Shown here: one piece after another, positions 8,646 through 21,406 of the stretch
Position numbering within the stretch: position 1 is the first letter of the stretch
Layout of the letters: every line of letters begins with the position of its first letter
Source of the DNA: a virus
Length of the DNA stretch: 21,699 bases
Strand: one strand, 5' to 3'
Virus record (IMG/VR): IMGVR_UViG_3300025154_000889
Span: 1 to 21,699 of that record
The notes under the pieces: model-generated
Databases searched by the model: none
Told to the model about the DNA's origin: nothing
What the model saw: the letters and a program-made list of their open reading frames with translations, nothing else
Translations under genes and position numbers: made by a program

Positions 8646-8649
8646 AAAG

Positions 8650-9171: not shown

Positions 9172-9611
9172 TAGATTTCTCCGTCAGCTTTCATAGATTT
9201 AAGGATGTTGTCTATTCCTATATTGACATTAACTTTACCATCGTCTTTCCCTTCTTCCTCAACAGACTTCATCCAGATGTTCATTCTGCCAGCGTCGCCT
9301 TCAAGCATAAGCTTCTCATAGAACTTTCCAAGGACTCCAGGAGTAAGCCTCTTAGCCCAAGCCTTCCAGTTCTGTTTAATCCTAGACTGCATTTCAGGAC
9401 ATCTCTCCCAATCATGGAGCATGTCTTTAGTAATACAAAACTTCTCACCAAAGTCTTTCCTATACCTGAGTTGTACAAGTTCAATCAGGTCAGGACTAAA
9501 GCCTTTTTCTTCAAGCTGTTCTATAGTAAACTTTGAAAAATGCCTAGGAAGGGAAAGCCATTCTCCGAACTTATCAAAAGCTGCAAATAGCTTTGGGTCG
9601 TTGATTTCCAT
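9171..9611 (-). CDS. terS: Probable terminase small subunit
   Basis: This 146-residue protein has the features of small terminases, the DNA-recognition ring that works with TerL. Helical segments at residues 28-75 include a helix-turn-helix-like stretch (ITKDMLHDWERCPEMQSRIK, where phage proteins often read L-x-x-W). A helical oligomerisation region follows (VLGKFYEKLMLEGDAGRMNI, similar to the family's LxxxALEGDxxAxK). The C-terminal tail (NVNIGIDNILKSMKADGEI) is where small subunits contact TerL. The location upstream of TerL in the same orientation supports the call. It has a perfect promoter so close that the message would begin at or next to the ATG, so it may be translated leaderless or from the upstream transcript. 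Confidence 0.72.
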   Translation of the reverse strand: MEINDPKLFAAFDKFGEWLSLPRHFSKFTIEQLEEKGFSPDLIELVQLRYRKDFGEKFCITKDMLHDWERCPEMQSRIKQNWKAWAKRLTPGVLGKFYEKLMLEGDAGRMNIWMKSVEEEGKDDGKVNVNIGIDNILKSMKADGEI

Positions 9612-9618
9612 ATCACGA

Positions 9619-9647
9619 ATTATACTATATTATATACTCGTTGTCAA
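9619..9647 (-). promoter_or_regulatory. Perfect-consensus sigma70 promoter, predicted leaderless for terS
   Basis: TTGACA (9642-9647), 17 bases, TATAAT (9619-9624) on the minus strand. Seven to eight bases beyond the -10 box is the terS ATG itself at 9611, so the RNA would have almost no leader and no room for a ribosome binding site. The -35 box contains the stop codon of the PC4-like gene. Confidence 0.88.
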
Positions 9648-10195
9648 TGTTGTTTATTGGTTTCAGGAAGGTCATTATATATGTTCATCAGTACGGTTGT
9701 AACCTGACTTATCAAATCGTAGTTAAACCGAACACCCTTATACGTAAACCCTTCGTAAGAGTGCATCTGGTCTCTAACCCACTCTCTGATGTCTACACAT
9801 ACAGAACCATTTGCTTTCGTGAGTGATACACATATGTCAATATTTGGATATTTGTTAATGCTGAAAAGCTTTTTGTTGCCAGTATCAGGAACATCAGAAT
9901 CAGGTACTTCAGGTAGGGATGTTAGGAAGTTAATAACCTCAAGTAAGAACCTATTTGAAATCGTAATACCTTTTTTGGAACTGTAATACTTGTTCTTGTC
10001 CACTGAATAGGAACTGGCCCTCAAGTCAGTGTACATTCCCATCTTGCCATCAGACTTACGGAACTTAACCAGAGCAATAGCTATATTAGCCGTAGGGCCA
10101 TTGCGTATAGTGCCGTAGATTTTTGGGAAATAATTGGTTATGTACTCTCTATCTCTGTGCTCATGGAAGGCAGAATCAGGCTTATGTGGTATCAT
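9644..10195 (-). CDS. Protein with two PC4-like ssDNA-binding repeats
   Basis: This 183-residue protein shows an internal repeat. Residues 35-91 (IALVKFRKSDGK, then TDLR, then YYSSKKGITIS and a helix) and residues 112-170 (ICVSLTKANGS, then VDIREWV, then FTYKGVRFN and a helix) share the pattern strand, DxR, K-K-G-hydrophobic-x-hydrophobic, helix. The same pattern marks the PC4 (transcriptional coactivator p15) fold, in which strands and a helix form an ssDNA-binding dimer; PC4-like proteins occur in phages such as T5. Two copies in one chain would form an intramolecular dimer. A role in replication or late transcription is plausible next to the central region. The ATG at 10195 has AAGGAG upstream. 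The repeat is seen; the family is inferred. Confidence 0.62.
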   Translation of the reverse strand: MIPHKPDSAFHEHRDREYITNYFPKIYGTIRNGPTANIAIALVKFRKSDGKMGMYTDLRASSYSVDKNKYYSSKKGITISNRFLLEVINFLTSLPEVPDSDVPDTGNKKLFSINKYPNIDICVSLTKANGSVCVDIREWVRDQMHSYEGFTYKGVRFNYDLISQVTTVLMNIYNDLPETNKQH

Positions 10196-10359
10196 GGTGA
10201 CTCCTTAAAATTGACCCCCACATTTGAGCATAAACTATGTAGCTTAGAGGCTTAGGGGGTACTTAAAACGTCTAAAACGTGCTCTCAGGTCACGGTATCC
10301 CTAGAGCGTATCCAGCATTCCGACCATAACCACCAATTAGTGATGGGTAACTGGATTAC
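10196..10359 (-). other. Structured leader of the PC4-like gene
   Basis: The promoter at 10366-10394 would produce a leader of about 160 bases. It contains ACCCCC (minus strand, from 10260) that can pair with GGGGGU (to 10214) around 34 bases, including a CATA/TATG mini-hairpin, and a direct repeat ACGTTTTA. A C-run/G-run hairpin also occurs in the small RNA near 6 kb. The AAGGAG site is outside the hairpin. No gene is seen in it. Confidence 0.4.
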
Positions 10360-10365
10360 ACTATT

Positions 10366-10394
10366 AATATAGCAGATTCACAAATCATTGTCAA
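10366..10394 (-). promoter_or_regulatory. Sigma70-type promoter leading the left arm
   Basis: TTGACA (10389-10394) and TATATT (10366-10371) with a 17-base spacer on the minus strand. It is the outermost minus-strand promoter seen and would transcribe the PC4-like gene and, by read-through, the packaging genes. Its start lies near 10359. Confidence 0.82.
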
Positions 10395-10604
10395 GTCCAA
10401 ATTTGCATTTTTGGGTGGTACTAGGAGGGGCCTAGGTATCATATCCCTGAGAGTCCAGATTCTAATTTCCTCCCCAGACCTGACATACCAAGGTACTTAA
10501 CTTAGTGGCTTTTAAAACGCACACGCACTGACGAGATATAGGTACTTCACCTTATCTAATAAAGAATTGGAGGGTGGGTAGTCACATCAGAGCCATTATA
10601 TATC

Positions 10605-10637
10605 TTTACATACGCGTTCGCATAGACTACATATAAT
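10605..10637 (+). promoter_or_regulatory. Possible rightward promoter in the control region
   Basis: TTTACA (10605-10610) is followed after 17 bases by TACATA, and TATAAT lies at 10632-10637 with a longer spacing of 21. Either arrangement is imperfect. It points toward the right arm but lies almost 700 bases from the first gene. Confidence 0.3.
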
Positions 10638-10702
10638 AACCTATATATATCTGATACAGTTAATAGCGTCTTAATTATATATATAACTAATCCCGCCCCG
10701 TA

Positions 10703-10744
10703 TTGTTAATAACTTGTTAATAACCCGTTTATATTGTTAATAAC
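10703..10744 (+). repeat. Three copies of an 11-bp repeat TTGTTAATAAC
   Basis: Exact copies lie at 10703-10713, 10714-10724 and 10734-10744. The first two abut, so the repeat period is one helical turn, and the third begins 20 bases after the second. GTTAATAAC is nearly palindromic. Same-face, AT-rich direct repeats like these are typical iteron or operator binding sites. Confidence 0.65.
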
Positions 10745-10924
10745 TCTATACTCATATTGCCTAATAATATATATATATAATATAGTCATCTATATGTTAA
10801 GTATATCATATGGTAAATAGTATACACTCTTATTATATAGTCAACCAATCTAATGGATATCACAATAAGTCTTTAGAACTATTGTGTTATAACTATGTTT
10901 ATCTATTCAATGCCAGACGTAAAA

Positions 10925-10959
10925 GTTAGCCTTGCCTAACAAAGTTAGCCTTGCCTAAC
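10925..10959 (+). repeat. Tandem copies of a 16-bp hairpin-forming repeat
   Basis: The sequence GTTAGCCTTGCCTAAC occurs exactly at 10925-10940 and 10944-10959, separated by AAA. Each copy carries GTTAG and CTAAC arms around six bases, so each could bind a dimeric protein or form a small hairpin. Two exact copies 19 bases apart suggest an initiator or repressor site. Confidence 0.65.
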
Positions 10960-11193: not shown

Positions 11194-11318
11194 TAAAACA
11201 TGGCAAAACACAACGGCGGCAACGGCAACACGGCCCACTTTAAACGCCATTATATATAATATATAGCAGATAAAAATAAGACAATTTAGTTAAATCAGAT
11301 AGTCATGGAGAAAATAAC

Positions 11319-11897
11319 ATGGAAAACGTGTCTAAAGTAGCGACAGTCGGAATGAGCGTGAAAAGCGCTGAGGAAATAGCGAAACAGAAGGAAATGGCTA
11401 AGACGGCATATAGCCTACTCGGAATGGAAATGCCCGAAAAGGCCGAAAAGGTGCGGAAAACGTCCACCGGGAGACGGTACAAGCTCGGATACCGTGACCT
11501 TGTTGACAACGGCAAGAAGATAAACATAAGCGAGTTAATGCCGTATGAAGCGGGGGAACAGGGCATAGACTGCGAGAGCTTGTGTCGGACTGCGCGGGCC
11601 TATATAGCATATAAAATAGGCCATACTCTCAAAGAGTTAAATATTCAGGAAACGGGTCATACTAACTTTTATTTCAGGAACCGTATCACTGAAACAGATA
11701 AAAGCATAGAAATAGAAGATATGAGCGCTTCTAACGCCTATGAGTTTATCTGGGCCTTTTACAAGGACTGTTTATCCGAAATTACGGATAAATGGGGCAT
11801 ACTTCAGACTGAAACGGGCGAAAAGGTTTTTTTAGCGGTCAAAAACGGGCACTATCACGTTGTGATGATAGCCGCTCCGGAAGCTAAACAAGCCTAA
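11319..11897 (+). CDS. First right-arm gene, unknown early-type protein
   Basis: This 192-residue protein starts at an ATG with TGGAG eight bases upstream. Its N-terminal 45 residues are charged and helical; a compact domain follows, with ISELMPYEAGEQGIDCESLC and then helical and strand segments, ending EKVFLAVKNGHYHVVMIAAP, a two-strand beta ending. No membrane segment, catalytic motif or known family is apparent. Its position next to the control region, with a strong hairpin directly after its stop, suggests a monocistronic early gene such as a regulator or an anti-host protein. Confidence 0.65.
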   Translation: MENVSKVATVGMSVKSAEEIAKQKEMAKTAYSLLGMEMPEKAEKVRKTSTGRRYKLGYRDLVDNGKKINISELMPYEAGEQGIDCESLCRTARAYIAYKIGHTLKELNIQETGHTNFYFRNRITETDKSIEIEDMSASNAYEFIWAFYKDCLSEITDKWGILQTETGEKVFLAVKNGHYHVVMIAAPEAKQA

Positions 11898-11904
11898 GAC
11901 AAGC

Positions 11905-11937
11905 ACTAACGGCGGTCAGAAATGGCCGCCTGTTAGT
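11905..11937 (+). terminator. Strong GNRA-capped hairpin after the first right-arm gene
   Basis: ACTAAC-GGCGGTCA pairs with TGGCCGCC-GTTAGT, with one bulged T at 11931 and one G-T pair, making a 14-bp stem capped by a GAAA tetraloop (11919-11922). It begins seven bases after the stop. It is not followed by a T run, so it may stabilise the 3' end or act as a weak terminator. The CAGAAATG apex recurs in the hairpin at 12706-12733. Confidence 0.6.
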
Positions 11938-12053
11938 CATATATATATAAGCATTGATAAACGCTTTTGTATATATGAGTAACAAATAATAAATCAGTAT
12001 TTCGCAAGTATCATTCCTTAAAGCGGCGGCCTAGTGGCTTAGTTAGATTGATT

Positions 12054-12149
12054 ATGCCAAATTACATGATTGTTAAGCAAATTTCAGCAGGATTGATTAT
12101 ATCTTTCATAGTGTCGTATGCTTACATAGTTTGCAACCTTTACTTATAG
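12054..12149 (+). CDS. Possible 31-residue single-pass membrane peptide
   Basis: An ATG at 12054 opens a 31-codon frame whose residues 10-31 (ISAGLIISFIVSYAYIVCN) are hydrophobic enough for one membrane helix, after a short polar start with one Lys. It ends nine bases before the next gene. No ribosome binding site is apparent, so it may not be translated. Small membrane proteins are common among phage early genes. Confidence 0.35.
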   Translation: MPNYMIVKQISAGLIISFIVSYAYIVCNLYL

Positions 12150-12158
12150 GATTAAACA

Positions 12159-12347
12159 ATGATTAAATCGATTAAAGTCCTTTACAATACGTACGGATTG
12201 ACCAAAGAGGGAGAAGTGATTGTCTCCTTCATTAAGACTGATTTGTTCCAAAAATTGGGCGAATTAGGATGGCTATTCAATTCCATGGAGCTTATGGCTG
12301 AAACTCCTGAGTTTAGCACTTGGGAGATTGAGTTCACTGAGGATTAA
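12159..12347 (+). CDS. Small hypothetical protein (62 residues)
   Basis: A 62-residue protein with strand-like IKVLYNTYGL and GEVIVSFIKT segments, a helix containing FQKLGELGWLFNSMELM and an acidic end (WEIEFTED). The start has only a weak purine-rich upstream site (AGGATTAAACA). It stops two bases before the first member of the tagged family but does not carry the tag. Its layout, beta hairpin plus helix, is compatible with a small regulatory or inhibitor protein. No family is recognised. Confidence 0.5.
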   Translation: MIKSIKVLYNTYGLTKEGEVIVSFIKTDLFQKLGELGWLFNSMELMAETPEFSTWEIEFTED

Positions 12348-12349
12348 CC

Positions 12350-12628
12350 ATGCAAATAAACATCGGAGACACTATCATCTGCTTTGAAAAGATCGACCCA
12401 GAAAACTGTTGGACAGGAGTAGTTACTGAATTGCATGGAGAGCGTGGGATATTCAGAAAGGAACAAGGTCGCGATGGACACTGGTTCGGAGGGTTTAGGT
12501 CTTCTGATATACTAGACATTGTTCACCGTTGGACTAACTGGAATTTCATTAAGCTAGATGATACAGGCAATACTCACAAACTTGAGCGCCTTGCTCCACA
12601 GATTAACAAAAGAGTAATACGAGATTAA
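12350..12628 (+). CDS. Tagged-family member 1 (ends NKRVIRD)
   Basis: This is the first of ten paralogues defined by a shared C-terminal peptide. It has 92 residues. The N-terminus reads MQINIGDTIICF, where the G-D followed by hydrophobics at residues 6-10 is the family's second common feature. The middle contains WTGVVTELHG and aromatic-rich strands (GHWFGGF, HRWTNWNFIKL), suggesting a small beta barrel. The last residues are NKRVIRD. GAGG lies eight bases before the start, which follows the previous stop by two bases. The function is unknown. An SH3-like barrel is inferred only from the GD-strand pattern. Confidence 0.7.
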   Translation: MQINIGDTIICFEKIDPENCWTGVVTELHGERGIFRKEQGRDGHWFGGFRSSDILDIVHRWTNWNFIKLDDTGNTHKLERLAPQINKRVIRD

Positions 12629-12679
12629 GGAGGCTTATAGATTAAAACATAGTTTACCTAAAATTAGCACTCCGTAGAC

Positions 12680-12736
12680 CTTCAATTAGCAGTTGAAGAA
12701 TTAAGACCGGTTAGGCAGAAATGTCTAGCCGGTTTT
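12680..12736 (+). terminator. Paired hairpins before family member 2, second is terminator-like
   Basis: CTTCAA (12680-12685) pairs with TTGAAG (12693-12698). Then ACCGGTTAGGCA (12706-12717) pairs over 12 positions, with two G-T pairs, with TGTCTAGCCGGT (12722-12733) around a GAAA tetraloop and is followed by TTT. The second hairpin resembles a Rho-independent terminator. A possible ATG at 12721 lies in its loop and is an unlikely start. The element ends 18 bases before the ATG at 12754. Confidence 0.6.
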
Positions 12737-12753
12737 ATAAACTAAACAAATTT

Positions 12754-12975
12754 ATGCCCATATCAGAATATATAGAAATAACTTGTAGATACTTAAACGA
12801 ACAGAGAAGGACTTGCACGTTTCCGAATGGAGTAGGGTTTATAGTGTGTCCTCATCCTAGGTACAGAAGATACGATTGTTCTCGTCCCATTGGAACTAGC
12901 GGCTGTTGGGCATATGATAGCAATGGCAAATAAGTCGTAATTCCAAAAATAATTAAAAGGGTAGTAAGAGACTAA
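12754..12975 (+). pseudogene. Tagged-family member 2 interrupted by an in-frame stop
   Basis: From the ATG at 12754 the frame runs 60 codons to a TAA at 12931-12933. In the same frame, without any shift, it continues VVIPKIIKRVVRD to a second TAA at 12973-12975, so the family tag lies 13 codons past the first stop. Either a nonsense mutation has removed the tag, or a fraction is made by read-through (context AAA-TAA-GTC). The N-terminus (MPISEYIEITCRYL) lacks the family G-D motif but has several Cys (CRY, CTF, CPH, CSR, CWA), unlike its relatives. It has no Shine-Dalgarno. Confidence 0.65.
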
Positions 12976-12976
12976 T

Positions 12977-13186
12977 ATGATTAAAGTCGGCTCAATAGTT
13001 AAATACATAAACGTAGGCGGTTTATCTAAAGAAACCTACAAGATAGCCACGATTAAAGATGGCTATGTAACTCTTTGCAATGAATATAATAAGATTCATG
13101 CACCCAACGCTGACCCAAATTATATAGGTAACATTAATTGGTTCAGAGATATTGGCCCTATAGAAAAGAGAGTGGTGAGAGACTAA
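12977..13186 (+). CDS. Tagged-family member 3 (ends EKRVVRD)
   Basis: A 69-residue member with MIKVGSIVKYI at the start (the G-S replaces G-D), strands around YKIATIKDGYVTL and a Trp-containing NINWFRDIGP before the tag EKRVVRD. Its ATG follows the in-frame end of member 2 by one base, and the purine-rich tag codons just upstream may serve as its ribosome binding site. The first 20 residues are basic and hydrophobic but too short for a membrane helix. Function unknown; it shares the small beta-rich layout of the family. Confidence 0.68.
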   Translation: MIKVGSIVKYINVGGLSKETYKIATIKDGYVTLCNEYNKIHAPNADPNYIGNINWFRDIGPIEKRVVRD

Positions 13187-13425
13187 TGAATACATATACC
13201 TGCGGAAACGCTGCTTGCGTAGGAGACTCTGTGCTAGTAATGAACTCTAGCCACCTACAAAGAGTAAGGCCAAGCTTTCTAATCGGACAAACCTTGGATG
13301 TCCTTAAGATTAACAGTAATGGCAATGTCTGTATAGATATCTCTGATGTCTTCTGGAACGCTAAAAGATTTAAGCTAGTATGCAGAAAGAAAGTACGCCC
13401 TGTTATGAGGGTCGTTAAGGATTAA
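13186..13425 (+). CDS. Tagged-family member 4 (ends VMRVVKD)
   Basis: I take the ATG at 13186, which overlaps the stop of member 3 as TAATG, rather than an earlier in-frame ATG inside member 3. The 79-residue product starts MNTYTCGNAACVGDSVLVM, with the G-D motif at residues 13-14, then strands (LDVLKINSNGNVCIDI) and a final VMRVVKD in which Lys replaces Arg before the last Asp and Met replaces the tag's first Lys. Two Cys lie before the G-D motif. The coupled start supports stoichiometric expression with member 3. Function unknown. Confidence 0.68.
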   Translation: MNTYTCGNAACVGDSVLVMNSSHLQRVRPSFLIGQTLDVLKINSNGNVCIDISDVFWNAKRFKLVCRKKVRPVMRVVKD

Positions 13426-13426
13426 T

Positions 13427-13687
13427 ATGGAAATTAAAACCGGTGACAAAATAAGATTAGGCTCAGAAGTCGGCGTATACACTTGGCCTCTTCTTGTTAT
13501 AAAACAAGACGAATACGGGTATTGCATGACTGAAGACGGGAACAATGTGTCTGGTCATGACGACAACATAGACGCTTTAATGTATGGTCATAAAAACTGG
13601 AAAGTTATAGAAGTCAAAAGAGGCTCAGAATGGGTATCATTTAAGCCAACTTTGCCAAAGATTAAGAAGAGAGTAATCAGAGACTAA
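13427..13687 (+). CDS. Tagged-family member 5 (ends KKRVIRD)
   Basis: An 86-residue member beginning MEIKTGDKIRLGSEVGVY, with the G-D motif at residues 6-7, then a strand and turn (LLVIKQDEYGYCMTEDG), an aromatic HKNWKVIEVKRG and the tag KKRVIRD. The tag codons of member 4 end AAGGAT-TAA and place AAGGA seven bases before this ATG, so one gene's tag forms the next gene's ribosome binding site. Of all members it best shows the order G-D strand, variable middle, W/K-V-I-E-V strand, tag. Confidence 0.7.
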   Translation: MEIKTGDKIRLGSEVGVYTWPLLVIKQDEYGYCMTEDGNNVSGHDDNIDALMYGHKNWKVIEVKRGSEWVSFKPTLPKIKKRVIRD

Positions 13688-13696
13688 GGAGAAATC

Positions 13697-13936
13697 ATGG
13701 AAAGCGAGTTCAGCAAGGTAATGTATCAGTTGCAGGTAATCAGAGTTTCCGGTACGCCTACATTCTTAAAGCGCGTATCTGAGACTACCCTCACCACCGA
13801 CACAATCGGCGCTAGGCTGAGGACTGAAGCAAGGAAGAGCAACCCTAAAGTTATTAGGGAGTATTTTCCTTCTGACAAAAAGGGAACGATGTTAGTCAGA
13901 TACAAGTGGAATACAGACTACGGGAGGGCAAAATGA
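13697..13936 (+). CDS. Small hypothetical protein without the tag
   Basis: A 79-residue basic protein starting MESEFSKVMYQLQVIRVSG, with GGAG eight bases upstream. It includes a Thr-rich stretch (SETTLTTDT), a basic helix (RLRTEARKSNPKVIREYF) and a strand (GTMLVRYKW). It breaks the tagged array and lacks both the G-D motif and the tag. The stop overlaps the next ATG by four bases. No family is recognised. Confidence 0.6.
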   Translation: MESEFSKVMYQLQVIRVSGTPTFLKRVSETTLTTDTIGARLRTEARKSNPKVIREYFPSDKKGTMLVRYKWNTDYGRAK

Positions 13937-14151
13937 AGGTTGGAGAATTAATCCGTATACTACAAACCCATGACCCGGTCTTAGATGTTGCGGTTCATGA
14001 CGCTCAGGAAGAAAGCGTTAGCATGGCTTCCGGAGTTTTCACCGAAACAAAGGGAGAGGAAGATGAACATGTGTACGTCAAAGGCGACCATCCTTTCGAC
14101 TATTGCAGAGACAAAGTTACAGATACAATATTAGTAATCACAGGAGGCTAA
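13933..14151 (+). CDS. Small acidic hypothetical protein
   Basis: The ATG at 13933 is chosen because it overlaps the previous stop (ATGA) and has GGGAGG upstream; an earlier in-frame ATG lacks a site. The 72-residue product, MKVGELIRILQTHDPVLDVAVHD at the start, has a helix, the motif DPVLDVAV, an acidic loop (TKGEEDEHVYVKGDHPFDY) and an ending strand (TDTILVITGG). Proteins with a xxELIxxLQxxDPxxxVxV start are common in phages and small bacterial genes of unknown function. It has no tag. Confidence 0.65.
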   Translation: MKVGELIRILQTHDPVLDVAVHDAQEESVSMASGVFTETKGEEDEHVYVKGDHPFDYCRDKVTDTILVITGG

Positions 14152-14286
14152 ATGAACAAAGAACATCAGAAGCAGTTTAACTTCACGGTTAATCCGTGGC
14201 TTACGATAGCCGTCTGGGCCAACCATAAGGCCGAGGCGCTTTCCAAGGCGTACAAGTTCGGCATTGCAGACCTGAAGGTAAAATAA
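14152..14286 (+). CDS. Short protein (44 residues), GC-richer codons
   Basis: The ATG immediately follows the previous stop and has AGGAGG seven to eight bases upstream. The 44 residues (MNKEHQKQFNFTVNPWLTIA at the start, ADLKVK at the end) form a strand and a long amphipathic helix containing AVWANHKAEALSKAYKFG. It uses G/C-ending codons more than the tagged genes do. A strand-helix protein this short may act as a dimer or binding peptide. Function unknown. Confidence 0.5.
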   Translation: MNKEHQKQFNFTVNPWLTIAVWANHKAEALSKAYKFGIADLKVK

Positions 14287-14291
14287 CAAGT

Positions 14292-14349
14292 CGGAGCCGG
14301 CCTAATCCCATGACATTAGGTTCTGCATGTCAGACTGAAAGCGGCTCCG
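14292..14349 (+). other. Predicted RNA structure, 8-bp closing stem
   Basis: CGGAGCCG (14292-14299) pairs perfectly with CGGCTCCG (14342-14349). Inside, CCTAAT/ATTAGG form a hairpin (14301-14320), and a second small hairpin (TCTG/CAGA) can form, giving a three-way junction of 58 bases. TGACAT and ATGTCA inside offer an alternative pairing. No T-loop or anticodon arm is recognisable, so it is not an evident tRNA. Confidence 0.5.
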
Positions 14350-14359
14350 CACAATTCAC

Positions 14360-14416
14360 ATCCGATACGTTTAAAATCTATTATTAGATGGGCTTATGCC
14401 TCGTTAGAAGTCGGAT
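14360..14416 (+). other. Second predicted RNA structure, cloverleaf-like, before member 6
   Basis: ATCCGA (14360-14365) pairs with TCGGAT (14411-14416), enclosing ATCTA-TTAT-TAGAT (14376-14389) and GGC-TTAT-GCC (14391-14400), two hairpins with the same TTAT loop. It ends eight bases before the ATG of member 6, in place of a Shine-Dalgarno. Stem GC content is moderate, so the fold needs covariation support. Confidence 0.45.
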
Positions 14417-14423
14417 ACAATTT

Positions 14424-14714
14424 ATGATGAAAAACTTCCAAGATGGCGATAGAATTTACATAGGCCAAAAGATATATGGCAATGGCTCGTACCGTGGCAC
14501 TTTAGGAAGCGGTAGAGAGTTGTTCGCTGATGGAGATGTTTACGTCGTCACAAAATGTTCACAGTCTACATTTGTTAATGACTCCATTTCTGTTAAATGT
14601 CTAAATTTTCCATACCAAGATTCAGGTTGGTATAGGAAATGGTTTAAGTTTGACCCAGACAATATAGAAATCATGAAACCTGAACCAATGAAAAAGAGAG
14701 TAGTGAGGGATTAA
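14424..14714 (+). CDS. Tagged-family member 6 (ends KKRVVRD)
   Basis: I choose ATG 14424 (MMKNFQDGDRIYIGQKIYG) because the family starts near its G-D motif, here at residues 8-9; an upstream in-frame ATG lies inside the predicted RNA structure. The 96-residue product has Gly/Arg-rich turns (GSYRGTLGSGRELF), a second D-G-D, a Trp/Lys-rich segment (DSGWYRKWFKF) and the tag KKRVVRD. There is no Shine-Dalgarno. It is one of the longer members, with an extra strand pair before the tag. Confidence 0.68.
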   Translation: MMKNFQDGDRIYIGQKIYGNGSYRGTLGSGRELFADGDVYVVTKCSQSTFVNDSISVKCLNFPYQDSGWYRKWFKFDPDNIEIMKPEPMKKRVVRD

Positions 14715-14716
14715 TT

Positions 14717-14995
14717 ATGCCAGAAACAAAAATACTTCCTGAAGTCGGAGACCATTTACAGCTTTTCAATAACAAAGGAAAGCTAGAATACGACCTAACC
14801 ATAAAGAAAGGTGCATCCGGGTACAAAGGCGATACCGGATGGGCTAATACTGCTTCCTATAAAACCATAGAAGAGTTATGCAACATCTCTTGGGCCGGGG
14901 TTAGGATTAAGAAAATGGACGGGACACTATACTGGTGGAAAGAAGTTTTTGTTCCTGCTATGCCCAAGATACATAAACGGGTAATCAAAGATTAG
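14717..14995 (+). CDS. Tagged-family member 7 (ends HKRVIKD)
   Basis: A 92-residue member starting MPETKILPEVGDHLQLF, with the G-D motif at residues 11-12, then KGASGYKGDTGW, a helix (KTIEELCNISW), and strands (GVRIKKMDGTLYWWKEV) before HKRVIKD. It is the only member stopping with TAG and the only one with both tag Arg at position 2 coded CGG and Lys before Asp. The preceding tag (AGGGAT) can serve as its ribosome binding site, nine bases before the ATG. Function unknown. Confidence 0.7.
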   Translation: MPETKILPEVGDHLQLFNNKGKLEYDLTIKKGASGYKGDTGWANTASYKTIEELCNISWAGVRIKKMDGTLYWWKEVFVPAMPKIHKRVIKD

Positions 14996-15021
14996 AAGTT
15001 AAAAGTCAAGGAGGATAGTAA

Positions 15022-15429
15022 ATGAAGAAAGTAAAGAAAGCGGTTGTTAGGATAGCGAAGAAGATGAAGAAGCCCGAAGTTAAGTTCTTCGGCTTTAAGG
15101 TGGTAGTCCGTGAGGGTGTGAAGCTGATGTCATGCACCAAGGCCGGACTTTCGGTTCAGTACATAACCGACAAGTTCGTGTCTCCCAGGATGTGGGGTGG
15201 CCCTCTGACTGTGTTCGAGAGCAAGTTCCTCGCGATAGGGTTCTGCGAGAAGCTTCTTTCGACCGTCAAAGAAGAAAACATCCGTGTCTATCGCTGCGAA
15301 TACGTCCCGACGATGTGTCAGCATGTCTGGCGTTACCGTGACGGCGGACTGAAGTTCAAGAGCATCAACGAACTCCCCGAGAAGTCCATCCTCGCCAAGA
15401 GGGTGAAGCTTCTGAAGCGTGTAATATAA
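15022..15429 (+). CDS. GC-rich basic protein ending in a partial tag (KRVI)
   Basis: This 135-residue protein starts with a Lys-rich helix (MKKVKKAVVRIAKKMKKPEV) and continues with strands (FFGFKVVVREGVKLMSC), a GGPLTVFESKF segment, and a Cys-rich stretch (YRCEYVPTMCQHVWRYRD). It ends AKRVKLLKRVI, which looks like a tag cut before R-D. After its stop, the same frame reads VRVVRC, which may be a degraded tag copy. GGAGG lies upstream of the ATG. The codons are strongly G/C-ending, unlike the tagged genes on either side, suggesting high expression or a separate origin. Family unknown; membership of the tagged group is uncertain. Confidence 0.6.
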   Translation: MKKVKKAVVRIAKKMKKPEVKFFGFKVVVREGVKLMSCTKAGLSVQYITDKFVSPRMWGGPLTVFESKFLAIGFCEKLLSTVKEENIRVYRCEYVPTMCQHVWRYRDGGLKFKSINELPEKSILAKRVKLLKRVI

Positions 15430-15597
15430 GTCAGAGTAGTAAGATGTAAAAGCAGTAAGATGTTAGAGACCTGATAGTGCAGAAAAACAGCAACAGCAGA
15501 CATCGCCTCGTGCATCGTCTGTGGAACCCGGTTAAAGTCCGAAGATGCTGTAAGACGGTTTTTGCCCATGTTCCGAGCAAAATGTGGGCTTAAATTT
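15430..15597 (+). other. Structured non-coding stretch before member 8
   Basis: There is no credible gene. Direct repeats AGTAAGATGT occur at 15438-15447 and 15454-15463. Downstream, GCATC (15512-15516) pairs with GATGC (15544-15548), with CGTCT/AGACG (15516-15520 / 15553-15557) as an alternative followed by TTTTT. GCCCATGTT (15564-15572) pairs with AATGTGGGC (15581-15589), nine pairs with two G-T. The last hairpin ends eight bases before the ATG at 15598, with no Shine-Dalgarno between. Confidence 0.45.
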
Positions 15598-15861
15598 ATG
15601 AAATATAACACTTGTGATACAGTTAATGAAGTTTCTGAGACTTACCATTCCGGAGAAACTCCCCAAAGAGGGGATTATGTGGTAGTCATAACAAGAGACT
15701 CTTCATATTTTGGGAGATACTTTAAAGTTCTAAGTTTTGAAGGGTTTACTGCGCATTTCCAGGATAGAAAAACGTGTCTATTTTTGGATAAGCTACAAAA
15801 AGTTAGTGAGAGAGAGTATTTAAAAAAGACCAAGATACTACTGAGGGTAGTAAGAGATTAA
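15598..15861 (+). CDS. Tagged-family member 8 (ends LLRVVRD)
   Basis: The ATG at 15598 (MKYNTCDTVNEVSETYHSGE) follows the hairpin at 15564-15589. The 87-residue product has the G-D motif at residues 26-27 in PQRGDYVVVITRDSS, later than in other members, so its N-terminus carries an extra polar segment. A middle part with FKVLSFEGFTAHFQDR and a charged helix (VSEREYLKKTKIL) precede LLRVVRD, in which the first Lys of the tag is Leu. No Shine-Dalgarno is visible. Function unknown. Confidence 0.68.
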   Translation: MKYNTCDTVNEVSETYHSGETPQRGDYVVVITRDSSYFGRYFKVLSFEGFTAHFQDRKTCLFLDKLQKVSEREYLKKTKILLRVVRD

Positions 15862-15862
15862 C

Positions 15863-16201
15863 ATGACATTCCAAAACATACAACCCGGAGACTTTATTCT
15901 ATTTGCCGCTTCTAATGGGACTAAGTATTACCATAAGATGTGTAAAGATGAAAGAGGGTGGTATACGTCAGTACATTCTAAGGGAAAGATAGGGAACGAG
16001 TCTTGGCCTTATGGATACATTACAATTCCAAATTGGTCTCCAACCCAAAACATATTCCCGTATTTTGAAATATGGAAATCAAACTGGGATATGTATTATT
16101 GCGGAGTAGAGAATGGGAACTCTTTAACTCATATAGATAACCCTTTACCGATTAGTAAATTTTATCGTCCAAAAATGAAAAAAAGGGTTATTAGAGACTA
16201 A
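15863..16201 (+). CDS. Tagged-family member 9 (ends KKRVIRD)
   Basis: The longest member, 112 residues, starts MTFQNIQPGDFILFAASNG with G-D at residues 9-10. The middle is unusually rich in Tyr and Trp (GYITIPNWSPTQNIFPYF, IWKSNWDMYYCG), as in carbohydrate- or peptide-binding surfaces. It ends PKMKKRVIRD. The purine-rich end of member 8's tag (AGAGATTAAC) lies directly before its ATG. It starts one base after member 8 stops. Function unknown. Confidence 0.7.
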   Translation: MTFQNIQPGDFILFAASNGTKYYHKMCKDERGWYTSVHSKGKIGNESWPYGYITIPNWSPTQNIFPYFEIWKSNWDMYYCGVENGNSLTHIDNPLPISKFYRPKMKKRVIRD

Positions 16202-16207
16202 ATTTAC

Positions 16208-16327
16208 CCGACCTAGTCAAACGAGTCCAAGCACCTAGTAAGTAAGAGCGAACGGTCTGTACGACAATTAGCCACTCCTGAAGAGTCATGGCAGAGTAGA
16301 CGAAAAGGGTTAGACTCCTCTGGTCGG
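16208..16327 (+). other. Predicted 120-base RNA structure before member 10
   Basis: CCGACC (16208-16213) and GGTCGG (16322-16327) form a perfect closing stem, with GAGTC/GACTC as an inner stem, and a hairpin formed by GCC-ACTC and GAGT-(CAT)-GGC inside. Like the other elements, it begins right after a tagged gene or its neighbour and ends eight bases before the ATG of a tagged gene with no Shine-Dalgarno. No ordinary RNA family is recognised. Confidence 0.45.
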
Positions 16328-16335
16328 CATTTTAT

Positions 16336-16590
16336 ATGAATACATACATAAACGGTAGACAACCAAAGATGGGTGATTGTGTTGTTATAGTCAGACATCC
16401 AAACGACCACCCATTATTTAAGATGTGGTTTAAATATGTAGTTATAAGAGCAGAAACTACGTACGTAAAACTAAATAATAGATATTCTGTTTATTTAGAC
16501 TATGTAAGTCATTACGACGATTTGACCGATGCTGAAAAAGAGCTGGTCGAAAAGAACTCAACAGTAGTTAAAAGAGTAATCAGAGACTAA
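16336..16590 (+). CDS. Tagged-family member 10 (ends VKRVIRD)
   Basis: An 84-residue member that starts MNTYINGRQPKMGDCVVIV, with the G-D motif at residues 13-14. Its MNTY start recalls member 4. The middle has strands (FKYVVIRAETTYVKL) and a charged helix (DLTDAEKELVEKNSTV) before VKRVIRD. The start lacks a Shine-Dalgarno, and CATTTTAT separates it from the preceding closing stem. It is the last member; the following gene does not carry the tag. Function unknown. Confidence 0.7.
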   Translation: MNTYINGRQPKMGDCVVIVRHPNDHPLFKMWFKYVVIRAETTYVKLNNRYSVYLDYVSHYDDLTDAEKELVEKNSTVVKRVIRD

Positions 16591-16599
16591 GGAGATAAC

Positions 16600-17076
16600 A
16601 TGGAAACTAAGACTAAAGGCGAAGAAATGGTTGCCAAGAGGAATCTGTGCAACTTCAAGATAAAGCGGGCTGTCGGTGGCGTGGAGATATTCATTAAGTC
16701 GGAACTTTACGAGGACTTCTTTAATAAGATTTCCTCCGGCAAGGCGATAAAGGCTCCGTCCGGTTCGTTCTTCGGAGAGGGCGAGAAGTATTACGACGTT
16801 AAGAAGTGCTCAGTACCTCGCTCAGACTACGAGTATGGCGTGTCTGTTGCGGATTACGGTCGCAGGGAGTTGATTAACCCCGACAACGCGTCTTATGACT
16901 TCTCGTTCATTAAGACTGTCGGCATCAAAGACGGAGTGAAGTTCACTGTAAACGGGATGTTCCTGCAGGAAGACATCGAACGTCTTCAGAAAGACTTCAC
17001 TAAGTTCACCAAAGCGTTCTTCATCAACTACGCTAAAGAGAACTCCATAGAAGTCACCATAAGCGCGATAGCCTGA
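16600..17076 (+). CDS. Hypothetical 158-residue protein, GC-richer codons
   Basis: AAGGAG lies nine bases before the ATG. The protein has a basic start (METKTKGEEMVAKRN), beta segments (VGGVEIFIKSELYEDFF), an aromatic/charged centre (FGEGEKYYDVKKCSVPRSD) and a C-terminal helix (LQKDFTKFTKAFFINYAKE) with a final strand (EVTISAIA). As with the 135-residue gene at 15022, codons are strongly G/C-ending, unlike the tagged genes. It lies between the last tagged gene and the amidoligase, so it might be a substrate, partner or chaperone of that system, though no family is recognised. Confidence 0.6.
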   Translation: METKTKGEEMVAKRNLCNFKIKRAVGGVEIFIKSELYEDFFNKISSGKAIKAPSGSFFGEGEKYYDVKKCSVPRSDYEYGVSVADYGRRELINPDNASYDFSFIKTVGIKDGVKFTVNGMFLQEDIERLQKDFTKFTKAFFINYAKENSIEVTISAIA

Positions 17077-17090
17077 TACCGGGAGGTATA

Positions 17091-17777
17091 ATGGAAGAGA
17101 AGAAACTATACGACAAAAAGTTCGTCCATATAGACAAGGTGGGACTAGAATTAGAGGGAGGGTGGGAGAATCCCCCGTCTTTCCAGATAGCAGGTGATTC
17201 TAGCGTCCACTGTAACGGGAACGAACTGGGAGAGGCTAGGACAGTCCCGCAGGATAACCTTAAAGACGTATTCAACGAGATAAACACAAAATATCCCGAT
17301 GATATAGACGCTTCCTGCGGTATGCACATCCACATAAGTATAAAGAATGGGATGCTTTTTCAGGTAGCTGATAAGAAGTTCCGCGATTACTTCATATATC
17401 GCATGGGATTACTTGCCAAATACCTTAGACATTCCGGCAATGAGACAGACTATAAGCGGTTCATCGCTAGGTTCAACAATAGCAATACCTATTGCAAGAG
17501 AGAGTTCGCACCTAGGGAACAGCTCAGAGGTGGCAACTCTCGTAGGACTATGCTCAACTTCTGTGCTTATAGGAAGTATAAGACTGTGGAGTGCCGTCTT
17601 CTGCCTATGTTTGAGAATCTTTCAAACGCTAGGATGGCCGCATATGAGGTAGTGGACACGTTCGAGAGTTACCTTGAAAAAGAAAGCGTAAACTACGAGC
17701 CTGTTGAGGTGGATATAGAGGTTAACAACTCTTTCTTCGTACCCGACAATGTTTCAATGGAGGTAATATGTGCGTAA
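17091..17777 (+). CDS. Amidoligase-family protein (COOH-NH2 ligase)
   Basis: This 228-residue protein has the motif order of the putative amidoligase family, related to glutamine synthetase and gamma-glutamylcysteine ligase: GLELEGG at residues 18-24 (metal-binding Glu), DSSV at 36-39, GEARTVPQ at 47-54, CGMHIHIS at 76-83 (family CGxHxH), RRTMLNF at 151-157 and KTVECRLLP at 164-172 (family TxExR). Such enzymes use ATP to join a carboxyl group to an amine, and are predicted to modify peptides or make metabolites. The next gene, overlapping by ten bases, is a class II glutamine amidotransferase, which could supply ammonia. GGAGG precedes the start. The substrate is unknown; the tagged peptides upstream are one candidate. 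Confidence 0.8.
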   Translation: MEEKKLYDKKFVHIDKVGLELEGGWENPPSFQIAGDSSVHCNGNELGEARTVPQDNLKDVFNEINTKYPDDIDASCGMHIHISIKNGMLFQVADKKFRDYFIYRMGLLAKYLRHSGNETDYKRFIARFNNSNTYCKREFAPREQLRGGNSRRTMLNFCAYRKYKTVECRLLPMFENLSNARMAAYEVVDTFESYLEKESVNYEPVEVDIEVNNSFFVPDNVSMEVICA

Positions 17778-18451
17778 TAGTCGCAATGGAAAGCAAGATA
17801 CCTAGCCTTGAAACACTCAAGCTATGTGAGAAGAAGAACCCTCACGGTGGAGGCATCTCGTGGGTTCACAAAGATAAGGTGCATTTCAAGAAAGGCATCC
17901 AAGCTGAAGAGATACATTCTATCGCAGTAGAGTTCGGCCCGCCTTGTATCGCGCACTTCCGCATTTCTACAGTCGGAGGTGTACCCAAAAGTCTAGCGCA
18001 TCCGTTCCCAATACAGAAAGTAATGACTGATGACCTTGAGGGAGAGGCTAGTTCTGTTCTCTTCCACAATGGTCACTGGAAAGATTGGGAAGAAGAGTGC
18101 TATCGCATGGTTCTTGCCAAAGGAGCCAACTTCACAGATGGGGATTGGTCTGATAGTAAGGCTATGGCATGGCTGACTGCGTGTTCGCATCATTCCTTCC
18201 TTGGATTCCTCAAATCACAGAGAGTTGCAATTCAGACCCCAAAAACCAGAATATACTACGGTTCTTGGGAGAAGAAAGACGAAACGTGGTATAGTAACCT
18301 TAATTGGGAAGAAAAGGATTACTCCAAGTACCGCCACACCGGCAAAATGGATGATACGTGGTGGGAGAAACATGGTTGGACATATGAAGAAAGCGCCGAC
18401 GGTGGTGGTGCGTGGATTCCTCCGAGCGAGAAAGTTGGTGATTCCAAATGA
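17768..18451 (+). CDS. Class II glutamine amidotransferase (Ntn hydrolase)
   Basis: The 227-residue protein begins MCVIVAM, so Met removal would expose Cys2, the N-terminal nucleophile of class II glutamine amidotransferases. Further family features are NPHGGG at 24-29, HFRIST at 63-68 (binding-pocket Arg), LAHPFPI at 77-82 and FHNGHW at 99-104 (oxyanion-hole Asn-Gly), with SDSKAMAW at 128-135. The first 160 residues are the domain; the Trp- and Lys-rich tail is extra and has no synthase domain, so ammonia must pass to another protein, presumably the overlapping amidoligase. GGAGG lies seven bases before its ATG. Family known; target reaction inferred. Confidence 0.85.
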   Translation: MCVIVAMESKIPSLETLKLCEKKNPHGGGISWVHKDKVHFKKGIQAEEIHSIAVEFGPPCIAHFRISTVGGVPKSLAHPFPIQKVMTDDLEGEASSVLFHNGHWKDWEEECYRMVLAKGANFTDGDWSDSKAMAWLTACSHHSFLGFLKSQRVAIQTPKTRIYYGSWEKKDETWYSNLNWEEKDYSKYRHTGKMDDTWWEKHGWTYEESADGGGAWIPPSEKVGDSK

Positions 18452-18666
18452 AAGGATACCAGACTGGAACCGTGGTTGAAGTAAGCGGACAAGACGCTAT
18501 TCTTTCTCAGGTTAATTACGGAGAGATATGCCTTATTGACATACAATCCGGAAATCGTTGGCATGACCCCATTCCTGTCGACTGTGCAGACACGATACCT
18601 ATCTCTAAAATAAAGGAGGCGGCGGATTTTGAACCCATAAAGATAAAAATGGCTAGATTTGCTTAA
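18448..18666 (+). CDS. Small beta-rich protein linked to the amidoligase operon
   Basis: The ATG overlaps the amidotransferase stop (ATGA). The 72-residue product has short strands separated by turns (TGTVVEVSGQDAILSQV, EICLIDIQSGNRW) and looks like a compact SH3-like or OB-like barrel with a helix (ISKIKEAADF) and a basic end (IKIKMARFA). Its coupling to the amidotransferase suggests it acts with the pair. It lacks the K-R-V tag. No family is certain. Confidence 0.6.
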   Translation: MKGYQTGTVVEVSGQDAILSQVNYGEICLIDIQSGNRWHDPIPVDCADTIPISKIKEAADFEPIKIKMARFA

Positions 18667-18667
18667 T

Positions 18668-19276
18668 ATGACAACACTTACAATCAAGGGAATAGAGTAT
18701 AATATAGACTTTATTGAGGATTCGCACGAATACTATGTAAATGGTACAAAAGTTCCGTGTGTGTCCAACTATCTATCTGATGTTCTTTCCAACAATGAGC
18801 CAATCCCTGAGTACGCTATGCCCGCGGTCAAAAGGGGAGTTGTGTTCCATAAGATAATAGCCCTTGATTTAACCTGTGGTGTAGATATTCAAAGTATAGA
18901 TGAAGGTCTTAAGGGTTATTGGGATTCCTACCAGTTGTTTAAATCAGAACACACTTTAATTCCTGATGCAGTTGAGGGTATAATTTACAACCCTGTAGAG
19001 AATGTCTGCATGACGTTGGATTACCGTGGCATATTAGATTGCTCAAAGAGCCTTGTGGATTGGAAAACAGGCGGTATGTATGCAAAGTATAGGGCACAGC
19101 TTGGAGGATACTATCGAGGGGCCGTGGAGTGCTTTGGATTTATACCTGAATTACTTGCCGCGGTACAAATTTTTAAGAATGGTAAAAAAGCTAAAGTTCA
19201 TGAGTACGACATAAATGACTGTTCCCATAGATGGGGGTCAATACATGAAGTTTATAACATGAGGAGAGAAAGATGA
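18668..19276 (+). CDS. PD-(D/E)XK nuclease-family protein
   Basis: I use ATG 18668; a TTG nine bases earlier is less likely. The 202-residue protein has the RecB/Cas4-type order: an N-terminal RGVVFH (residues 56-61, family RGxxxH), LDYRGILD at 117-124 with the acidic residue, DWKTG at 131-135 (the D-x-K core) and a QLGGYY helix at 144-149 (family QxxxY). These residues bind metal and cut DNA. In phages such enzymes act in recombination, DNA degradation or repair. Residues before 50 form a beta-rich extension with DSHEYYVNG, as in some phage exonucleases. No helicase domain is attached. Confidence 0.82.
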   Translation: MTTLTIKGIEYNIDFIEDSHEYYVNGTKVPCVSNYLSDVLSNNEPIPEYAMPAVKRGVVFHKIIALDLTCGVDIQSIDEGLKGYWDSYQLFKSEHTLIPDAVEGIIYNPVENVCMTLDYRGILDCSKSLVDWKTGGMYAKYRAQLGGYYRGAVECFGFIPELLAAVQIFKNGKKAKVHEYDINDCSHRWGSIHEVYNMRRER

Positions 19277-19392
19277 AAATATACGCTTGCGACACTTGTC
19301 AGCATAAAGAGAACGCGACTTGTCCTTGGGCCATATATATATGGTTCAGATACAACAGAGAAGTTTGTTCTGATTATAGGAGATTTAAATAG
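19273..19392 (+). CDS. Cys-rich short protein (39 residues)
   Basis: The ATG at 19273 overlaps the nuclease stop and has GGAGAG upstream. The 39 residues include CDTCQH at 6-11, C17 and C32, four cysteines in total, a pattern that could bind one zinc ion or an iron-sulfur cluster. The spacing and a Trp-rich middle (PWAIYIWFRY) resemble small phage zinc proteins of unknown role. It ends eight bases before the next gene. Confidence 0.6.
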   Translation: MKIYACDTCQHKENATCPWAIYIWFRYNREVCSDYRRFK

Positions 19393-19400
19393 GAGATAAT

Positions 19401-19850
19401 ATGACAGGCTTACAAAAACTGGTGAAACTTTTAGAGAGAGACCTAGATAAAATAACGGAGATAAGTTGCATTTCCGAGAGCAATAGAATAAAGGGGTATT
19501 TAGACTGTGCCCGCCTCCTCCTCTCCCAAGAGCGTGAGCAGACGGAGGGGTTGGTGGAGGAGTTTAAGAAGTGTGTGGATAGGCATAAAACACATTGGAA
19601 TAGCCAATGGGCAATAAATACCATGGAAGAAATCCTCTCTCGCTACACCCCCACGGAGAGCATAGCGGAGAAGCCGCTGGTGATGACTTCCCAAGTATTC
19701 TGGCACGATGATGAGGATGGCGGTGGATGGGCGTTTACTGTTAGAAAAGGCAAGGAGGTTATCAGGCGTGGATGCGCGGACACAAAGGAAGATGCCGAAG
19801 CCAAGGCCCGCCAGTATTTAAATTCGTTACCCGACAAGGAGGTGAGATAG
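19401..19850 (+). CDS. Hypothetical two-part protein
   Basis: GGAGA precedes the ATG. The 149 residues comprise a helical, partly coiled N-terminal half (LVKLLERDLDKITEI, LSQEREQTEGLVEEFKK) and a C-terminal half with beta strands and a helix (GGGWAFTVRKGKEVIRRG, KEDAEAKARQYLNSL). The latter resembles small strand-strand-helix domains of phage proteins. No Cys pairs or catalytic motifs are clear. It lies in a set of overlapping small genes and is probably early. Confidence 0.6.
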   Translation: MTGLQKLVKLLERDLDKITEISCISESNRIKGYLDCARLLLSQEREQTEGLVEEFKKCVDRHKTHWNSQWAINTMEEILSRYTPTESIAEKPLVMTSQVFWHDDEDGGGWAFTVRKGKEVIRRGCADTKEDAEAKARQYLNSLPDKEVR

Positions 19851-19852
19851 AT

Positions 19853-20032
19853 ATGTTGTTTGGATTAGAGTTGGACAATTATGCCATAACCATTGCGCTT
19901 GTAGCTAGTTGCCTTAATTGGGTATTTCTTTGTTGGGCGATAGCCATAGACCCGAGTGAACACCATAAGGGGCATTGGACTACGAAAGATATATTTGAAT
20001 ACCGCCCCAAGGACAAAGGAGCCTCTAAATGA
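19853..20032 (+). CDS. Small membrane protein (59 residues)
   Basis: An ATG at 19853 with AAGGAGG upstream yields 59 residues. Residues 8-30 (ITIALVASCLNWVFLCWAIA) form one hydrophobic helix, followed by a polar, basic tail (HHKGHWTTKDIFEYRPKDKG), so it is probably a single-pass inner-membrane protein. A longer frame from 19772 would overlap the preceding gene without a site and is rejected. The stop overlaps the next ATG. Superinfection-exclusion proteins often look like this, but that is only possible. Confidence 0.6.
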   Translation: MLFGLELDNYAITIALVASCLNWVFLCWAIAIDPSEHHKGHWTTKDIFEYRPKDKGASK

Positions 20033-20529
20033 TAATCACGGAGAAAATGTTGAGCAAAGAAGAAAACCCATGTGATGATGGTCTGGCGTGGTTCAAGAAA
20101 GAACCCAACCACGATATGACGGCCTTGGTTAAGTCTGCCATAAAACAGGGTGGAGAACCCATGAATTATGTCGGGTGGGGCCTGTGTGCTGTAATGACCA
20201 AAGAACAGCGCATAGAGTGGGGCATATTCTCGGCTTATCAGGTAGCGCACCTATGGAAAGACAAGTCCCCCAAAGAATACGCCATATGGGACGAGTGGGC
20301 GAGTGGTAGGGATAGGTGCGCTACCGCTAGGGCCGCCGCTAGGGACGCCGCTAGGGACGCCGCTAGGGACGCCGCTTGGAACGCCGCTAGTGACGCCGCT
20401 AGGGACGCCGCTAGTGACGCCGCTTGGAACGCCGCTAGGGCCGCCGCTTGGAACGCCGCCCACAACAAAACGTTAGCCAAAATACTCCGTTACGGGGTTA
20501 AGATATTGAACGAGGGAGGGAGGAGATAA
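20029..20529 (+). CDS. Protein with eleven-fold Ala-rich 4-residue repeat
   Basis: The ATG overlaps the previous stop. The 166 residues comprise an N-terminal 95-residue region ([21 protein letters not shown]..., then [13 protein letters not shown] and [11 protein letters not shown]) and a repeat region at residues 101-144. The repeat consists of eleven four-residue units of the form [R/W/S]-[D/N/A]-A-A, then a short basic helix. A perfect four-residue period would give a helix with one charged and one Ala face. Similar repeats occur in phage and bacterial proteins of unknown role. The N-terminal part, with Trp and Asp-rich motifs, resembles no family I can name. Confidence 0.65.
20329..20460 (+). 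repeat. Eleven tandem 12-bp units (GCTAGGGACGCC type)
   Basis: The Ala-rich repeat is encoded by eleven 12-base units, with GCTAGGGACGCC as the common form and variants TGG-AAC and AGT-GAC. Repeats of this length expand and contract by slippage, so copy number may differ between related phages. It is GC-richer than the window. Antisense frames through it are artefacts of its periodicity. Confidence 0.85.
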
Positions 20530-20530
20530 T

Positions 20531-20836
20531 ATGTTCGGAATAGACAAAATAAAACTAGACCTCATACGCCTTTGGAACGCCATAGAGAGGGTGGATAAAA
20601 CTGCTACTTGCGCTCTTAAAGATGGGGATGTCAGACACGAGGTTGTCCACAGGTTGAATAAACAGGTGCAAGAACAGGGGCAAGCCATACACGCGCTATC
20701 TGAATATTTGGGGGTAACTTTTACGCACAAGAGCGTGCCAGACCCGTCTATGCTACCCCCCGCCCCTATCATGATGGAAGTAATGGTCTGTGTCCCCCGC
20801 CCGTCCACGACAGGCGAGGAAAAGGGGGAGAAATGA
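20531..20836 (+). CDS. Hypothetical helical protein with Pro-rich tail
   Basis: GGAGGAGA lies before the ATG. The 101 residues contain two long helices (MFGIDKIKLDLIRLWNAIERV and EVVHRLNKQVQEQGQAIHAL) suitable for a helical hairpin or coiled coil, then a Pro-rich, flexible tail (VPDPSMLPPAP, PRPSTTGEEKGEK). The stop overlaps the next ATG. No family is recognised. Its form fits an oligomerising accessory protein. Confidence 0.6.
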   Translation: MFGIDKIKLDLIRLWNAIERVDKTATCALKDGDVRHEVVHRLNKQVQEQGQAIHALSEYLGVTFTHKSVPDPSMLPPAPIMMEVMVCVPRPSTTGEEKGEK

Positions 20837-21084
20837 AAGCCAAGGCTTATCCAAGTTGTAAAGAGTTCCCTTGTGAAAGCATCTCCTGTGATGGTGCCAA
20901 TATCCTACGGGAAATAGAAGTAGAAATACCCACCGCCGACCTTATCGCAGAACTGGAACGGAGGAGGCCGTGTAAAAAATGCGTTACGCAATCCGATATG
21001 CGGTGCGTGTCTTGTGTATGGAGCGCAGTTTACTCTATGAATAAAAAAGACAACTTCACACCCAAAAGCGAGGAGGTAAAATGA
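20833..21084 (+). CDS. Cys-rich small protein, zinc-binding-like
   Basis: The ATG overlaps the previous stop (ATGA). The 83 residues have a Cys-containing N-terminus (SCKEFPCESISCDG), a helix (TADLIAELERRR), then CKKC and CVSC pairs near residues 57-66, suggesting a zinc ribbon. Starting with MKAKAY, it resembles the next gene's MKAKTK in its first four codons, perhaps a trace of duplication. Its role is unknown. Confidence 0.6.
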   Translation: MKAKAYPSCKEFPCESISCDGANILREIEVEIPTADLIAELERRRPCKKCVTQSDMRCVSCVWSAVYSMNKKDNFTPKSEEVK

Positions 21085-21314
21085 AAGCTAAAACCAAAGA
21101 GGCGATAGGGGCAGTAATAGAGGACTTATGCTCTAACGGAATTGGGGACCAGACAGCCCTCGCAAAAATCTGCGCCATAGTAGAACAGGAGAGGCAGGGG
21201 GAATTAGTGATAGCGAATGGACGGGTAGCGCGCAAAATCCACAAAGATAAATGGGCTTTGATGGTAGGGCGGTTAGGCCGTCTAATTTTCATCCCCGACG
21301 AGGTGACGAAATGA
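21081..21314 (+). CDS. Small hypothetical protein
   Basis: GAGGAGG lies before an ATG overlapping the prior stop. The 77-residue product has a helix with EAIGAVIEDLC, a helical middle (ALAKICAIVEQERQGELVI) and a C-terminal strand (WALMVGRLGRLIFI). It is charged, with no membrane helix. It belongs to the run of ATGA-overlapping genes that also includes its neighbours. No family is recognised. Confidence 0.6.
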   Translation: MKAKTKEAIGAVIEDLCSNGIGDQTALAKICAIVEQERQGELVIANGRVARKIHKDKWALMVGRLGRLIFIPDEVTK

Positions 21315-21406
21315 GGGCGAACGTGGATAAGGAATGGGCGTTTTTAGTGCTTTCTTTGGTGTGGGGGATTTTAACTGTGGGATGGTATATATTGGAGGCC
21401 AAATGA
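21311..21406 (+). CDS. Short membrane peptide (31 residues)
   Basis: The ATG overlaps the prior stop (ATGA) with GAGG upstream. After a polar start (MRANVDKEW), residues 10-28 form a hydrophobic helix (AFLVLSLVWGILTVGWYIL) that should cross the membrane. It is very short but has a good start context and overlaps the next gene by four bases, so it is likely real. Function unknown; small single-pass proteins in phages often alter the host envelope. Confidence 0.5.
   Translation: MRANVDKEWAFLVLSLVWGILTVGWYILEAK

Follow-up and report, generated by a model that had tools for sequence, protein, structure and literature searches.

Long leaders and starts without Shine-Dalgarno sites at the block-first genes of a tagged-gene array in a bacterial virus

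The window analyzed here is a fragment of 21,699 bases from a virus record; its left part carries the terminase and portal genes on the minus strand. On the plus strand, between 12350 and 16590, lie ten small genes that each end in an RV[VI][RK]D tag, and nine of the ten align as one family. These tagged genes are arranged in blocks (genes 2-5, 6-7, 8-9 and 10), of which genes 2, 6, 8 and 10 are the first members. Within the blocks, genes 3, 4, 5, 7 and 9 start no more than 2 nt from the previous tag, one of them overlapping it by a base. The block-first genes, their leaders and an isolated Shine-Dalgarno (SD) sequence are placed as follows:

12626..12633, plus strand: orphan SD TAAGGAGG, overlapping the gene 1 stop, with no start codon behind it
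12629..12753, plus strand: leader of gene 2, 125 nt from the gene 1 stop to the ATG at 12754, no SD, fold z -5.4
12754..12975, plus strand: tagged gene 2, with an in-frame TAA at 12931-12933 between the ORF and the tag
14287..14423, plus strand: leader of gene 6, 137 nt, stem domains at 14290-14352 and 14360-14416, fold z -3.0 for the whole leader and -3.0 and -2.6 for the domains
14424..14714, plus strand: tagged gene 6, start context CAATTT-ATG
15430..15597, plus strand: leader of gene 8, 168 nt, whole-leader fold z -0.3
15598..15861, plus strand: tagged gene 8, start context AAATTT-ATG
16202..16335, plus strand: leader of gene 10, 134 nt, with a 6-bp closing stem CCGACC/GGTCGG whose ends lie at 16208 and 16327, fold z 0.0
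16336..16590, plus strand: tagged gene 10, its start backed by the alignment with gene 4, which likewise begins MNTY

In gene 2, the frame continues after the in-frame TAA and encodes VVIPKIIKRVVRD (12931-12975); read from the sequence, this TAA would either have arisen by a nonsense change or be a stop that is read through. Modeling of one tagged protein gave a small beta barrel (mean pLDDT 72), for which structure searches returned weak matches (best E 0.12), including L19, Hfq, RimP and Tudor folds. Elsewhere in the window, a small gene at 20318-20460 contains in-frame GCY-rich tandem repeats.

The initial annotation had stated that genes 2, 6, 8 and 10 begin without a ribosome-binding site, and our inspection confirmed it: the starts at 12754, 14424, 15598 and 16336 have no SD core (4 nt or more), and long untranslated gaps lie ahead of them. 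Among 31 plus-strand starts, chosen by hand, the core is absent from five, namely these four and g18668. This absence is associated with gaps longer than 30 nt (Fisher p = 0.0008), and the association holds at p = 0.002, calculated by hand, if g11319, which has a divergent intergenic region upstream and an SD, is counted as leadered. Using a generic anti-SD, from which the 16S end of the host may differ, we obtained duplex energies of +1.3, -3.3, -2.6 and -5.2 kcal/mol for genes 2, 6, 8 and 10, the value for gene 10 not being extreme, and of -5.1 to -9.8 at the in-block starts. On the minus strand, 8 of 17 starts have an anti-SD energy weaker than -5; since SD-weak starts are this common, the phage needs no special device for initiation without an SD. 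The G+C content of leaders 6, 8 and 10 (44.5-47%) is above that of the tagged genes (33-42%) and of the other gaps (34-36%), which hints at some structural content.

The tags themselves differ according to what follows them. All five tags with a start no more than 2 nt downstream read RVV[RK]D, whereas all five remaining tags, which are block-last, read RVI[RK]D (Fisher p = 0.008). The tag codons may also provide the SD for the gene that follows, although the V/I split may instead stem from common descent rather than from selection for an SD. The mean energy of the tag with the anti-SD is -7.5 for the start-adjoining tags vs -4.8 for the others (means calculated by hand; one-sided p = 0.075), a difference that is only suggestive. 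Because of this p value, and because most tags are no stronger in anti-SD energy than random synonymous codings, selection on the tag codons for an SD is unproven.

What unites the four block-first genes is where they stand in their blocks and an AU-rich start without an SD, and not a class of structure. The explanation to which we give an even chance of being right is that the four regions are ordinary, though unusually long, 5' leaders of block-first genes, heterogeneous in content, with AU-rich, SD-less initiation. Inside a block, the last tag codons and the stop (of the AGR GAY TAA type) would supply an SD-like stretch and coupling, whereas a block-first gene would have no tag directly ahead, and ribosomes would enter at its AU-rich unpaired start, probably via ribosomal protein S1. 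Entry through S1 on AU-rich starts is established. In a study of a structured IRES in E. coli, S1 and an AG-rich element, not the structure, were held responsible (PMC9458429).

Strong stems close to the start codon had initially been proposed to replace the SD ahead of all four genes. Each stem is indeed there as sequence, including ATCCGAT/GTCGGAT (14360/14416) before gene 6 and the closing stem before gene 10, but the comparison with shuffles did not confirm that they are alike in strength or all beyond chance. The close spacing holds for genes 6, 8 and 10 (7, 8 and 8 nt from the ATG), while at gene 2 it is 16 nt. The hairpins that matter to the argument, among them a twin of the gene-2 hairpin outside the four leaders, are:

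11905..11937, plus strand: twin hairpin, 14 bp, CA-GAAA-TG loop, behind g11319 with the next start 221 nt further on, z -7.2
12702..12737, plus strand: 16-bp GAAA-capped hairpin, its 3' arm ending 16 nt before the gene 2 ATG, equaled in 0 of 300 shuffles
15564..15589, plus strand: 9-bp hairpin GCCCATGTT/AATGTGGGC with two G-U pairs, 8 nt before the gene 8 ATG, local z -2.9

When the best helix ending 3-20 nt before each start was compared with 300 shuffles of the same leader, helices as strong arose in none of the shuffles for gene 2, in 54 for gene 6, in 13 for gene 8 and in 23 for gene 10; over the same range, 5 of 27 other starts also reach -13.2 to -15.6 kcal/mol. In a sliding fold scan (80-nt windows over 11.4 kb, 456 windows on the plus strand), the gene-2 hairpin ranks first, and leaders 8 and 10 are unremarkable (z +0.6 to +1.2 for leader 10). 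The gene-6 leader has a moderate fold (z -3.0) that is about equal between strands, and the 'cloverleaf' ascribed to it comes out as a predicted three-way junction; default settings give no tRNA call. Taken together, the finding combines a genuine RNA hairpin (gene 2), a moderate fold (gene 6), a local hairpin (gene 8) and a stem that lacks support (gene 10).

It could be argued that the structured leaders serve SD-independent ribosome entry, with the closing stem docking 7-8 nt before the AUG at the place of the SD helix and an AU linker in between. The SD is absent, the G+C of the leaders is raised, and the stems before genes 6, 8 and 10 each belong to the top 1-2% of genome positions at their spacing (fractions 0.021, 0.009 and 0.019; combined p 0.0003, in a post hoc test whose spacing came from these very genes). 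Against this, the folds of leaders 8 and 10 are like those of shuffles, the gene-2 hairpin stands at 16 nt, and the other SD-less starts of this phage mostly have no comparable stem, so that we consider such entry elements unlikely. As a class, then, structures replacing the SD are not supported, in view of the shuffle-like leaders, the SD-less starts elsewhere and a gene-2 hairpin whose twin is far from starts. What remains of the proposal is the gene-2 stem as an RNA element, which is borne out by its strand-specific strength (z -9.6 on the plus strand vs -1.6 on the minus strand); on the reverse strand its two G-U pairs turn into mismatches.

The twin at 11905-11937 is the second strongest of the sliding windows, and the top two folds are thus both capped CA-GAAA-TG; CAGAAATG occurs twice on the plus strand, at 11917 and 12716, both times in the loops of these hairpins. 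The distance of the twin from any start points, for the pair, to termination or processing rather than to a role at a start codon. Phage intercistronic RNase III sites and intrinsic terminators are stand-alone intergenic hairpins, and the elements at 11905-11937 and 12702-12737 resemble them in this, differing in that they have no canonical T tail. As one of two related GAAA-capped hairpins, the gene-2 hairpin would most likely terminate or protect the upstream transcript or mark a point at which it is processed. Extended to all four leaders, this becomes the possibility that the hairpins serve as terminators, attenuators or sites of RNase processing and that each block is read from a 5' end of its own, made just after the stem. 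In favor of such transcript boundaries are the strong plus-strand hairpin of gene 2 and its twin after g11319, the gene-8 hairpin, which is terminator-like in a consensus scan and the sole pass among the four leaders, and a T-tailed hairpin, read by eye, at the place in the relative G002 that corresponds to 11905-11937. However, the T run of the gene-2 hairpin is short, a convincing hairpin is missing at gene 10, and neither sigma-70 promoters nor intrinsic terminators are enriched (promoter-like count 17 vs 23.9 in shuffles; terminator-like count 9 vs 9.1). We therefore regard boundaries at every block as doubtful, though conceivable.

Heterogeneity of the leaders, as the favored explanation has it, is also what the motif searches returned. 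No motif of 8-25 nt common to the four leaders was found beyond shuffles, nor a repeated end sequence that marks them. AATTT-ATG is common to genes 2, 6 and 8, and gene 10 has TTTTAT-ATG. On the plus strand of the window, AATTTATG occurs three times, always at the starts of genes 2, 6 and 8, and on the minus strand not at all; its expected count in 11301-21699 is 0.27. In relatives, the AATTT-ATG 8-mer, counted per strand at any position, occurs 1+1 times in G001, 3+1 in G002, 0+2 in G003 and 0+0 in G006. Rfam, including its riboswitches and ribozymes, gave 0 matches above the gathering threshold for the window, the region or each leader, and with permissive settings the best hits stayed far short of that threshold. 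A hammerhead in leader 10 was considered and rejected (11.4 bits vs a cut-off of 34, E 7.9): CTGAAGA and GAAA are present, and matching stems I and III were not found by eye. No tRNA was called at default settings or, on the four leaders, in mitochondrial and intron modes, and a scan of the leaders at a lowered threshold gave low-scoring calls alone, on both strands.

The search for relatives bears on the possibility that the leaders bound cassettes. Searches by profile, terminase, portal and tag pattern turned up no second genome that carries the array. The terminase search returned one record, 100% identical, which overlaps the window at 3-10946 only; the portal search led to the same record, which is 99.99% identical to the left half of the window and ends before the array. 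Neither blastn of 12000-17000 against phages nor a search with the amidoligase-like protein gave a match, and tagged protein 5 matched four phage records at a best E of 0.7. The tag pattern was present in 9 viral and 38 genome stretches, with no locus holding two tags, and a screen of 105 loci from related phages for shared C-terminal tails gave no array. The tag-family profile, applied to 25 records, produced one weak match; as a control, it re-found in the window, at E 4e-13 or better, the nine genes from which it was built, which is what its construction leads one to expect. The weak match is one of two small adjoining tagged-family-like proteins in the region G017:C1:44771-45001, both of which end in a similar tail, SPI..KF..LF; they may be a further pair of tailed paralogs whose tag is a different one.

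The most informative relative is G002, whose terminase is 56% identical and which retains the terminase, the portal, the amidoligase-like gene and its neighbor (alignments of the best 80 of 582 loci for the terminase, and of 19 loci for the protein at 17768). From the first rightward gene to the amidoligase-like gene, G002 has about 1.5 kb of SD-led genes without tags, vs 5.8 kb here, and since the array is missing from this syntenic genome, we class it as accessory. On the right, the synteny is anchored only by the amidoligase-like gene and the 17768 homolog, because g11319 and g16600, when blasted against the G002 neighbors, showed no convincing homology. The amidoligase-like gene itself has a weak PHROG match (E 0.0003) and belongs to an adjoining gene pair (17091-18451) kept in G002; the gene beside it resembles, by its motifs, class II glutamine amidotransferases.

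The absence from G002 would fit leader and block being units that are inserted or shuffled, with recombination at the leaders. Genes 4 and 10 are alike from the ATG onward and their upstream regions differ, and the orphan TAAGGAGG after gene 1 resembles a junction that lost its gene, the same tag-TAAGGAG junction preceding real starts at 13697 and 16600 (self-matches). Yet there is no common end sequence, and the G-U pairs in two of the stems favor RNA over DNA and so weaken the case for DNA hairpins; cassette boundaries seem to us quite unlikely.

Several known systems share features with this locus. The 'split' ribosome-binding sites of T4 genes 38 and 25 are likewise phage intercistronic structures directly before a start codon, in which the fold brings an upstream SD to 5 or 11 nt (PMC3014915). 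We rejected this arrangement here: the gene 6 and 8 stems have no SD immediately 5' of them, at gene 10 a tag-borne AGAG is about 19 nt away, and at gene 2 AAGGAGG sits inside the predicted first hairpin. The start-associated and extended start-associated sequences (SAS/ESAS) of cluster K mycobacteriophages are start-linked repeated elements with inverted repeats before phage genes, and the ESAS repeats have a 17-bp consensus (PMC3203893), whereas the leaders here have no common motif or consensus, AATTT-ATG alone being common to three; we do not assign them to that class. Non-SD initiation in weakly structured start regions likewise combines an SD-less start with little surrounding structure (PMC5397173), with the difference that the SD-less starts here belong to a phage whose plus-strand genes mostly have an SD. 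Our literature searches found no report of this layout of leaders and blocks.

In its most ambitious form, the proposal would be that sequence-unrelated leaders each set a stem 7-8 nt before the AUG and so start the lead gene without an SD, while the downstream genes use an SD made of tag codons; we judge this very unlikely. If true, it would mean that a bacterial virus orders the translation of a paralog array by structured leaders and by a protein tag whose codons also act as a ribosome-binding site. For the present, what is of use is the block pattern, with tag codons before a start and SD-less block-first genes, together with the strand-specific hairpin pair.
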